Of a DNA stretch of 64,000 nucleotides, positions 955-3,785 are shown piece after piece. The stretch is from contig NZ_FUYC01000002.1 of assembly GCF_900167125.1 (NCBI RefSeq), positions 62,001 to 126,000 on the forward strand. The letters are read 5' to 3'. This stretch comes from Paucidesulfovibrio gracilis DSM 16080 (GTDB lineage: Bacteria; Desulfobacterota; Desulfovibrionia; Desulfovibrionales; Desulfovibrionaceae). Each line of letters begins with the position of its first letter. Position 1 is the stretch's first letter. The translations under genes and the position numbers were made by a program. The notes below the pieces were generated by a model, which saw nothing but the letters and a program-made list of their open reading frames with translations, had not been told where the DNA came from and did no database searches.

Positions 955-1761
955 TCAGGCCCGGGCCACGACCAGCACATCCACGCGGTCGGCTCCGGCG
1001 TCCTGCAGGGAGCGGGCGCATTCCCGCAGTGTCGCACCGGTGGTGCAGACATCGTCCACCAGCAGGATGCGGCGGCCCTGCACCAGGGGAGAAGCGGTAA
1101 AGGCGTGGCGCAGGTTGGTGCGGCGTTCCGTGGCTTTGAGCGTGGATTGGGGGGGCGTGTTTCGAATGCGCTGCAGGGCCGAATCCGCCAGAGGAACCTT
1201 GCAGATGCGGGCAATGGGCCGGGCCAGGATGCGGCTTTGGTTGAAGCCGCGACCACGCAGTCGGCGCGGATGCAGGGGGACGGGGACCACTAGTTCCGGG
1301 AGCAGCAGTTCGGGAGCGTAGGGCAGGAAACCTGCAAAAGCGCGTTGCCAGGCCGATGCCGCCAGCCGACCGAGCAAATTCGATGTCTGGATGCCGCCGT
1401 GAAATTTGAAATTAACGATCAAATCCCGCAGTGGGCCTTGGTATCGTCCATGCAGGAGAAAGCGGTTCCAGGGGGGCGGATCGGCGCGGCAGGAGCCGCA
1501 GAGCATGGGGGTATCGTGCTCAGAACTGAAAAAAACGCCGCATTGCGGGCAATGGCCCGCGCTACGGGGAGCCAGGGCCGCGTTGCAGTCCGGGCAGAGA
1601 CCAAGGGCCGACACCGAGTCGGTTGGGCGGCCGCACACAGGGCAACGGACCTGCGCAAGGCCGGTCCATTGCCCCATGGCGCGCCAAAGGGAAAAGCCGG
1701 AACGCAGTCCCGGCAGGGCAGTCCCCTGTGGTGCGGCAGGCGGCTTGCCGGGGAGGTGCAT
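955..1761 (-). CDS. ComF family phosphoribosyltransferase-like protein
   Basis: A 268-residue ComF/GntX-type protein. The N-terminal half has a zinc-ribbon region with paired cysteines at C40/C43, C56/C59 and C71/C74. The C-terminal half is a type I phosphoribosyltransferase fold with the PRPP loop ILLVDDVCTTGATL near residues 235-250. In naturally competent bacteria ComF proteins help DNA uptake. In others the role is unclear, and the substrate cannot be told from sequence. It is the last gene of a same-strand run starting at the nitroreductase, 6 bases after the flavoprotein gene. No good ribosome-binding site precedes the ATG used; Met29 is an alternative start. Confidence 0.85.
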   Translation of the reverse strand: MHLPGKPPAAPQGTALPGLRSGFSLWRAMGQWTGLAQVRCPVCGRPTDSVSALGLCPDCNAALAPRSAGHCPQCGVFFSSEHDTPMLCGSCRADPPPWNRFLLHGRYQGPLRDLIVNFKFHGGIQTSNLLGRLAASAWQRAFAGFLPYAPELLLPELVVPVPLHPRRLRGRGFNQSRILARPIARICKVPLADSALQRIRNTPPQSTLKATERRTNLRHAFTASPLVQGRRILLVDDVCTTGATLRECARSLQDAGADRVDVLVVARA

Positions 1762-1767
1762 GCCGGA

Positions 1768-2364
1768 CTATCCGGCGTGGGTCTGCCAGGCTTGCTTGCC
1801 CAGGGCGCGGATGCGTTCCGCGGCCTCGGGGTGGCGTTCCATGTCCGCGATTTTTTCAAAGCCTCGGAATTCCATGGGATCCTGAAGCTCCAGATTGAAG
1901 CTTTGCAGGAAGTATTTCATGGTCAGGCGCGCCCCCTCAAAGAGCTTGTCACCTTCGGAGCGTCCCGCGAACAAGGTCATGTAGGCGGGTCGTACCGGGC
2001 GCTCCGCCACTTCGGGGTCATTTTTCATCTTGCGGGCGTAGACCCATTGGCTGCGGTCGATGAAGGTCTTGAGCCGCGAGGGAAGGTGATAGAAGTAGAT
2101 GGGCGCGGCAAAGAACACGAAGGGCGCGTTCAGCATGTTTTCGAAGAGGTCCAGGGCATAGTCCTTGCCTTGCAGCGCGCAGGGGCTGGCCGGGTCTTTT
2201 TCGCAGACGCGGCAGGCCCGGCAAGGCTTGATTTCCACTTTACGCAGTAACACGGTGTCGGCTTCACCGCCGGCCTCGCGCACGCCTTCGAGAAAAAGGT
2301 TCATGGCGTTGTTGCTGTTGCCCTGTGCCCGGTGACTACATTGAAAGACGATGGGGTTGCTCAT
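1768..2364 (-). CDS. NADPH-dependent FMN reductase / flavodoxin-like iron-sulfur flavoprotein
   Basis: A 198-residue flavodoxin-fold protein. After the first strand (IVFQCSHRAQGNSNN), where the FMN phosphate loop is expected, there is a cysteine cluster at C48, C51, C54 and C62 (CRACRVCEKDPASPC). This resembles the iron-sulfur flavoproteins of anaerobes. The segment FFAAPIYFYHLPSRLKTFID matches the conserved second FMN-contact region. It probably moves electrons from a pyridine nucleotide or ferredoxin to an unknown acceptor in the cytoplasm. It follows the candidate selenoprotein by 27 bases, with an AAGGAG site 9 bases before the ATG. Confidence 0.8.
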   Translation of the reverse strand: MSNPIVFQCSHRAQGNSNNAMNLFLEGVREAGGEADTVLLRKVEIKPCRACRVCEKDPASPCALQGKDYALDLFENMLNAPFVFFAAPIYFYHLPSRLKTFIDRSQWVYARKMKNDPEVAERPVRPAYMTLFAGRSEGDKLFEGARLTMKYFLQSFNLELQDPMEFRGFEKIADMERHPEAAERIRALGKQAWQTHAG

Positions 2365-2391: not shown

Positions 2392-2616
2392 TCAGGTCGC
2401 CTTGCGGGTCAGGAGGATCCGCAGGTGGTCGCTTTCGGGAAATCGTTCATACGTCCATTCCGGCAGGATGTGCAGGGCGTTGTCGATCTGGCCGAGCTGG
2501 GCCTCGTCGATGCGCGCCTCAATGGCGCCATCCCGGGTGAAGCGGAGATACCAACCTATCTCCAGTCCCACGCCTCAACATTTGCCACGCAGGTCGAGTC
2601 GGTGCTTCACGTCCAT
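2392..2616 (-). CDS. Candidate small selenoprotein (in-frame UGA)
   Basis: Reading from ATG 2616, codons 1-13 give MDVKHRLDLRGKC, codon 14 is TGA (2575-2577), and the same frame continues 60 codons to TGA at 2392. The product would be 74 residues with a Cys-Sec pair. Codon use is GC-rich at third positions on both sides of the TGA, as expected for one continuous gene. A 7-bp hairpin with a GGTTGG loop begins 11 bases after the TGA and its loop begins 18 bases after, a position seen in bacterial SECIS elements. The gene starts 15 bases after the MBL hydrolase stop and precedes a flavoprotein. LDLRGxC loosely recalls TusA/SirA-type proteins, but I do not recognise the family. A broken gene is the main alternative. 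Confidence 0.6.
2544..2563 (-). promoter_or_regulatory. SECIS-like hairpin
   Basis: On the transcribed strand GGAGATA pairs perfectly with TATCTCC around the loop GGTTGG. Bacterial SECIS elements lie just downstream of the UGA inside the coding region and carry G residues in the apical loop for SelB. Here the first loop G is 18 bases after the UGA. The codons inside the hairpin (ATA, GGT, TGG, TAT) are less GC-rich than their neighbours, which suggests constraint by RNA structure rather than by codon preference. Confidence 0.6.
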
Positions 2617-2631
2617 GGTCGGATATCCTGT

Positions 2632-3252
2632 CTACAGTCCCGTGAAAAAGGGGTTGTGGTTTTCTTCCTCGCCCACCGTGGTCTGCTCCATATGCCCCGG
2701 ATAGAGGATCGTGGCGTCGGGCAGGGTGAAGATGTTCTCGCGCACGGATTGGGCCAGGGTATCGGCGTTGCCGCCCGGAAAATCGGTACGGCCCACGGCG
2801 CGCCGGAAGATCAGGTCGCCCACGAAGGCGAGTCCGGCATCCGGGAAATAAAAGGTCAGGCTGCCCGGAGTGTGTCCGGGGGTGTGCAGTGCCTGGCATT
2901 CCTGCCCCAAAAAGGTGTGTCGTCCTGGTTCCAGCGCCTGGAAATCAAAAAGCTCCACTTTGGGGAGTCCCATGATGCCGCCCTGTCCCACTTCGGTTTG
3001 CAGCAGGTGTTCATCCGCTTGCGGAGCCAGCACGGGCGCGCCCGTTGCCTCGGCCAGCGCCTTGCAACCGTAGATGTGGTCGAAGTGCAGGTGTGTCACC
3101 AGGATGTGGGTGAGGGTGAGGTTTTTTTTTCGCAGTTTGTCCAGGATGGGCGCGGGATCACCGCCCGGATCAATGACCACGGCCTCGCCGTTGTGGCTGC
3201 AGAGGTACGTGTTGGTGCCAAGAGGTCCGAGCACCAGCGTGATTACGTTCAT
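2632..3252 (-). CDS. MBL-fold metallo-hydrolase (glyoxalase II-like)
   Basis: A 206-residue metallo-beta-lactamase fold hydrolase. The metal motif THLHFDH gives H54, H56, D58 and H59; a later HTPGHTPGS and GDLIF supply the other expected metal ligands. Its size and motif order match the YcbL/glyoxalase II-like group, which cleaves thioesters such as S-lactoylglutathione, though the true substrate is unknown. Its ATG overlaps the stop of the nitroreductase by 4 bases, so the two are translationally coupled. The candidate selenoprotein follows 15 bases after its stop. Confidence 0.9.
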   Translation of the reverse strand: MNVITLVLGPLGTNTYLCSHNGEAVVIDPGGDPAPILDKLRKKNLTLTHILVTHLHFDHIYGCKALAEATGAPVLAPQADEHLLQTEVGQGGIMGLPKVELFDFQALEPGRHTFLGQECQALHTPGHTPGSLTFYFPDAGLAFVGDLIFRRAVGRTDFPGGNADTLAQSVRENIFTLPDATILYPGHMEQTTVGEEENHNPFFTGL

Positions 3253-3785
3253 GAGGTGAAGTCCTCCAATACGAAGTCGGAAAGAGGTTCGCGTTGGGAG
3301 CTGCCCGTCTGGGCGGGGTGTCCCATGGCAATAATGGCCTGGAGTTCGAACGTTTCGGGCTGGAGTCCCAGGATGGGAAGTACGGCTTTTTCCTGGTTGA
3401 TGATTTCTCCCAGCCAGACCGCACCCAGGCCCAGGGCGTGGGCCGCCAGCAGCATATTCTGTGCTGCGGCTCCGGCGGACTGGTGGTCCTTGCGTGCATT
3501 ATACAACCGATCCTTTTGCAGGAGCAGCACGACCATGACGTCGCATTCGCGGACTACATGTGCGTATTTGGTCTGCCCGGCCAGGTCTTCGCGCCGGGGG
3601 TCGTCCGGGCCGATGACCAGAAAACGGCAGGGCTGGTTGTTCAATCCGCTGGGCGCCCAGCGGCCCGCTTCGAGCACGGCAAGCACGTCCTCGCGGGATA
3701 CGGGGGTACCCGTGAACCGTCGGATGGAGCGTCGCTCGCGTATGGCGGTCAGTACCGGAGCCGCGTTCGATGTGGTTTGGGACAT
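3249..3785 (-). CDS. Nitroreductase family protein
   Basis: A 178-residue FMN-dependent nitroreductase-fold protein, short like many anaerobe members. It has the N-terminal ERRSIRRF, the RWAPSGLNNQPCRF active-site segment and a C-terminal MGHPAQTG, all typical of the family. Such enzymes use NAD(P)H or ferredoxin to reduce nitroaromatics, quinones or other acceptors; the natural substrate is not evident. It heads a same-strand run of five genes, with MBL hydrolase, UGA-containing ORF, flavoprotein and comF downstream. Confidence 0.88.
   Translation of the reverse strand: MSQTTSNAAPVLTAIRERRSIRRFTGTPVSREDVLAVLEAGRWAPSGLNNQPCRFLVIGPDDPRREDLAGQTKYAHVVRECDVMVVLLLQKDRLYNARKDHQSAGAAAQNMLLAAHALGLGAVWLGEIINQEKAVLPILGLQPETFELQAIIAMGHPAQTGSSQREPLSDFVLEDFTS

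Follow-up and report, generated by a model that had tools for sequence, protein, structure and literature searches.

The window, a stretch of 64,000 nucleotides from contig NZ_FUYC01000002.1 of Paucidesulfovibrio gracilis DSM 16080, carries on its minus strand a 74-codon gene (2392..2616) that contains an in-frame UGA and has homologues sharing this UGA. The gene starts with an ATG at 2616-2614 and ends with a TGA stop at 2394-2392. An AGGA upstream of the start (2626..2629, minus strand) is its likely ribosome-binding site; a Shine-Dalgarno-like core was found at this place in 48 of 69 members of the family. The internal UGA, read as Sec14, lies at 2575..2577 on the minus strand and directly follows the codon of its partner, Cys13 (2578..2580, minus strand). 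Translation of the minus strand over window positions 2616-2395 gave MDVKHRLDLRGKC-U-GVGLEIGWYLRF...TRKAT, and the complete product encoded by these positions, up to the stop at 2394-2392, is MDVKHRLDLRGKC-U-GVGLEIGWYLRFTRDGAIEARIDEAQLGQIDNALHILPEWTYERFPESDHLRILLTRKAT. A hairpin assigned as a bacterial SECIS element (2544..2563, minus strand) lies past the UGA; its stem pairs 2563-2557 with 2550-2544 and closes a GGUUGG loop (2556-2551). An earlier note, made from the sequence alone, had described a TGA at codon 14 of a 74-codon frame directly after a Cys codon, a perfect 7-bp hairpin with a GG-containing loop starting 11 bases past it, coding GC3 on both sides of the TGA, and gaps of 15 and 27 bases to a metallo-hydrolase and a flavoprotein gene. 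The strand was not stated, and the frame was found on the minus strand. Each of these claims held (Cys13 with UGA at 2577-2575; GGAGATA-GGTTGG-TATCTCC at 2563-2544; GC3 of 0.69 upstream of the UGA and 0.83 past the hairpin; neighbours at 2632-3252 and 1768-2364).

The gene is located 15 nt downstream of a gene encoding a metallo-beta-lactamase-fold, glyoxalase-II-like hydrolase (2632..3252, minus strand; PF00753, E 2.7e-33) and 27 nt upstream of one encoding an NADPH-dependent FMN reductase/flavodoxin-fold protein (1768..2364, minus strand; PF03358, E 4.7e-12). The hydrolase gene overlaps by 4 nt with the gene of a nitroreductase-family FMN protein (3249..3785, minus strand; PF00881, E 1e-30). 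All three are conserved neighbours, and the last gene of the conserved cluster encodes a ComF-type phosphoribosyltransferase (955..1761, minus strand), which was named from sequence features and not from an HMM. The order nitroreductase, metallo-hydrolase, selenoprotein, FMN reductase and ComF, with a receiver domain before ComF in some cases, recurs in many genomes from three taxonomic families. Just past the cluster, the window encodes ribosomal proteins L21 and L27. Neighbouring genes were grouped by BLAST clustering and named from the Pfam hits of the window and from sequence features; their frames were picked mechanically, and absence at a locus does not amount to loss. Two variations in this neighbourhood were observed. 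Within one genus-level group (L059, L060, L091), the selenoprotein gene no longer sits in this operon and is followed by a gene (cluster 21) whose product has about 710-765 residues. Within one taxonomic family (L107, L108, L115), a glycosyltransferase-like gene is inserted between the metallo-hydrolase and selenoprotein genes.

Homologues were present in 108 of 199 genomes of the same taxonomic family, and the in-frame UGA was found in all 108; the sole match without UGA in this set was a second hit in one genome (G024). Codon 14 was TGA, and never TAA or TAG, in 77 of 77 distinct extracted members, codon 13 encoded Cys in 76 of them, and a Gly followed the vicinal Cys-Sec pair in nearly all (CUG). 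The remaining member (L129, G057:C13:34036-34260) has Gly-Sec in place of Cys-Sec and retains both the UGA and the hairpin; because Cys is the residue replaced there, Sec looks more essential than the Cys of the pair. Of 247 genomes from the order searched with a 56-row alignment, 144 gave matches, spread over four families; the UGA-less matches that were inspected belonged to a Cys paralogue family, apart from a single orthologue (G630). The gene is common to most of the Desulfovibrio-type sulfate reducers sampled. Phylum-wide searches of 395 genomes gave matches confined to the same taxonomic family, and we infer that spread beyond the order has no support in this sample. Searching contigs with the single protein identified only one close relative, the metagenome-assembled genome Desulfovibrio sp. 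STF2_139.

The homologues do not end at the TGA; they keep the UGA in frame, and the protein sequence before and after it is conserved. Across the 56-row alignment, residues 8-13 show in-frame conservation, and downstream of the UGA, comparison with the two nearest species gave dN values of 0.03-0.13 against dS values of 0.37-0.70. This deficit of dN indicates purifying selection on the part of the protein that follows the UGA.

Judged on the window sequence alone, the hairpin is weak evidence, only modestly better than chance; its minimum free energy (MFE) of -13.7 kcal/mol corresponds to a z of -1.84, and a comparable perfect stem was found at 14 of the 1801 TGAs of the window. It meets the bacterial SECIS model, which requires a stem of 4-16 bp, a loop of 3-9 nt whose first two positions include a G, a UGA-to-loop distance of 16-37 nt and an MFE at or below -7.5 (PMC13188914), with values of 7 bp, GGUUGG, 18 nt and -13.7. 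A chance hairpin, conceivable from a single sequence, was ruled out by conservation, and we accept the hairpin as real because it is conserved across the order. Among 71 distinct sequences, the seven stem pairs were formed in 93% of cases, against 37-69% when one arm was slid by 1-3 bases. The loops of the family are mostly GGUUGG, GGGUGG or AGUUGG, and every member has an MFE of -7.5 kcal/mol or lower. The hairpin is kept among homologues with compensatory changes: the first stem pair is swapped from G-C to C-G in some lineages, and position 1 of codon 20 (mostly Ile/Val) covaries with the synonymous position 3 of codon 23 (mostly Tyr/His), with counts of 28 A-T, 0 A-C, 23 G-C and 20 G-T (p 7e-7). 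This p value ignores kinship, related species not being independent.

The machinery for Sec insertion was found in the P. gracilis genome, with selA at C3:136566-137924, selB at C3:139566-141452 and a tRNA-Sec with anticodon UCA at C3:235830-235919. Across the 199 genomes of the family, 100 carried both the gene and selB, 8 the gene without selB, 67 selB without the gene and 24 neither (Fisher p 4e-4, uncorrected for relatedness). All 8 gene-carrying genomes in which no full-length selB match was found are drafts of some 30 to 590 contigs, fragmented or incomplete.

A second family with the pattern D-[LV]-x-x-x-x-C-[GN]-L-x-P is encoded in the same genomes, P. gracilis included (G000:C1:221423-221659; L118 3001-3237), and carries Cys in the Sec column. 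Profile comparison related the two families at 99.2% probability (E 8e-20). The Cys paralogue gave nothing meaningful in Pfam or NCBIfam; in a structure comparison, TusA-type chains came first at Z 7.7-8.4, with the first other fold at 6.3. In several genomes (L118, L119, L120, L123-L127), its gene immediately follows khpB (jag) and mnmE. We infer from this neighbourhood a tRNA wobble-uridine setting, which would fit a relative of TusA, and the paralogue is possibly a sulfur carrier for that modification.

Collectively, the comparative evidence (in-frame decoding, SECIS, Sec machinery, Sec/Cys exchange and operon conservation) indicated that the gene encodes a genuine selenoprotein; we regard this as nearly certain, in the absence of direct proof of selenium incorporation. 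The earlier note had proposed a selenoprotein, to be refuted by a genome without selA, selB and selC, by homologues ending at the same stop or lacking Cys or Sec there, or by a hairpin that is not conserved. Its proposal survived all of these tests and is supported. The note expected standard gene callers to miss or fragment the gene, and ordinary annotation truncates it at the "stop". The note saw neither the TusA-type fold described below, nor the distribution across the order, nor the Cys paralogue.

An AlphaFold2 model built with the family alignment (pLDDT 91.7) displayed a strand-helix-strand-helix-strand-strand (beta-alpha-beta-alpha-beta-beta) arrangement. Its best structural match was TsuB/YeeD (Z 10.4, 2.2 A over 72 residues), followed by a SirA-like protein (Z 9.4) and TusA (Z 9.2), with Alba and Smr domains close behind at Z 8.3-8.6. 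The predicted fold and the length of about 75 residues are those of the TusA/SirA/YeeD (TsuB) proteins of PF01206, and the nucleophile stands six residues past the Asp conserved in the first strand, a place taken in TusA by the Cys that accepts the persulfide. This cysteine of E. coli TusA accepts sulfur from IscS (PMC2854127). The sulfur-accepting cysteine of E. coli TusA is Cys19. Support from profile comparison with TusA proteins was weak (44% probability, pairwise E 2.4e-4), the alignment pairing Sec14 with the TusA cysteine; alignment A3 consists of 18 rows from genomes and a row for E. coli TusA added by hand. No match to PF01206 was found in any of 56 members at E values up to 1, and the family profile gave only chance hits against the sequences of solved structures (E 0.79 or worse). 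Unlike TusA, the selenoprotein has Sec for Cys, a Cys before it and Gly instead of Pro after it, so that CPxP is absent, and the family is not recognised by PF01206 or by other Pfam or NCBIfam models. The structural ranking and the Asp spacing therefore make the family TusA-like in fold and nucleophile position, yet the HMM results and the missing CPxP keep it outside PF01206. We consider a TusA-type fold with Sec14 at the position of the TusA cysteine likely, as predicted by the model. PF01206 itself is matched twice in the P. gracilis genome: a 76-residue frame contains one match (G000:C18:10857-11057), and the other (G000:C3:377198-377386) falls inside a 229-residue frame that is possibly a YedF-type fusion.

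The earlier note recognised no described selenoprotein family, and this held in our comparisons. The family had no match in Pfam or NCBIfam, selenoprotein models included, and is absent from the table of 119 families in a 2026 review, which has no entry with a TusA domain (PMC13188914). No paper on a TusA-type selenoprotein was found in the literature searched, a scope that left out bioRxiv and most subscription journals. The family is also missing from early lists of selenoproteins for Desulfovibrio vulgaris and D. desulfuricans (PMC1794560). Desulfomicrobium orale and Salidesulfovibrio onnuriiensis were examined with deep-Sep, and no new selenoprotein was reported in either (PMC12013277); two of our contigs that carry the UGA gene, G618:C1 and G665:C1, are inferred to be these two genomes. 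Candidates without recognised Cys homologues are filtered out by deep-Sep (PMC12013277). The family was probably overlooked because its frame is tiny, because the UGA comes after only 13 codons, and because pipelines of this kind apply such a filter. We conclude that it is so far uncatalogued in the lists and models compared. The Sec-containing sulfur-handling families that are listed, DsrE-like, rhodanese-like forms 1-5 and YeeE/YedE (Table 1, PMC13188914), resemble it in their predicted sulfur handling, in having Sec at or near a reactive cysteine and in having been found by in-frame UGA and SECIS, but their domains (PF02635, PF00581 and PF04143) differ. A vicinal Cys-Sec, with a possible selenenylsulfide, is shared with CopZ-like form 2, SaoC, SaoL, HgcA, MbdU, KCU-star and the GCUG of mammalian thioredoxin reductase, but these proteins are unrelated and the members match none of their NCBIfam models.

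Our main reading, a selenoprotein with a TusA-type fold, is very likely (probability about 0.88). In the mechanism we propose, SelB and tRNA-Sec would insert Sec at UGA14 under the direction of the downstream hairpin, and the product would be a small protein handling sulfane sulfur (or selenium). The Sec14 selenolate may attack a persulfide or polysulfide. The sulfur may then be passed on with Cys13 acting as a relay, or Cys13 may resolve the adduct, forming a Cys-Sec selenenylsulfide and releasing sulfide. The neighbouring FMN reductase would restore the reduced Cys-Sec pair. This chemistry, with its substrate and reductant, is inferred and could as well be wrong as right, with only the neighbourhood to support the substrate and the part given to the flavoproteins. 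A bolder reading, towards which we lean only slightly, is that this is the first TusA-type selenoprotein, a new family found across the order in which Sec, working with the vicinal Cys, takes over from the sulfur-accepting cysteine of a TusA-fold carrier, and which acts as a sulfane-sulfur reductase or relay in dissimilatory sulfate reducers.

The rival explanation that is hardest to dismiss keeps the selenoprotein and the TusA-like fold but assigns to Cys-Sec a thiol-disulfide or peroxide-type redox role in which no sulfur is carried. In its favour, nearly all members have a Gly directly after the vicinal Cys-Sec, an arrangement that resembles the GCUG terminus of mammalian thioredoxin reductase, and genes for an FMN reductase and a nitroreductase flank the gene. 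Against it, the fold and the position of Sec match a sulfur carrier rather than a thioredoxin-type oxidoreductase, and the member with Gly for Cys (L129) indicates that the pair is not strictly required. We place this redox role clearly below even odds, and it is not excluded. Delivery of selenium or sulfur for tRNA wobble-uridine modification, as by TusA and perhaps by the Cys paralogue near mnmE, appears unlikely. The role of TusA in mnm5s2U synthesis (PMC2854127) and the paralogue genes downstream of khpB-mnmE in several genomes, P. gracilis included, speak for it, but the Sec gene sits in a flavoprotein operon and not in the khpB-mnmE neighbourhood, and the genome already has two PF01206 proteins.

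The remaining rival denies selenium altogether: the UGA would simply terminate translation, and a short frame beyond it would start internally at codon 16. This codon is indeed GTG in the window gene, and ATG, GTG or TTG in 38 of 69 members. However, it is no such start in the other 31, and a Shine-Dalgarno core precedes it in none of the 69; the variation at codon 16 and the missing cores rule out an internal start there. In addition, residues 8-13 are conserved in frame, the terminator is never TAA or TAG, a covarying hairpin lies downstream and Cys replaces UGA in the paralogues, which leaves this rival all but excluded.

The selenoprotein reading adds a widespread family to the well-studied sulfate reducers. 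If Sec occupies the reactive position of a TusA-type protein, the benefit of selenium for sulfane-sulfur transfer becomes testable, as does the handling of persulfides by organisms that live in sulfide. The only orthologue found without UGA (L099, G630:C7:10377-10586) has DLRQACPC in place of the DLRRVCUG of a congener, and its hairpin has decayed. No selB was found in this genome (G630), which is 85% complete, and both the UGA and selB are present in its congeners G584 and G632. A CPC form without a detected selB, next to congeners that retain UGA and selB, constitutes a natural experiment.
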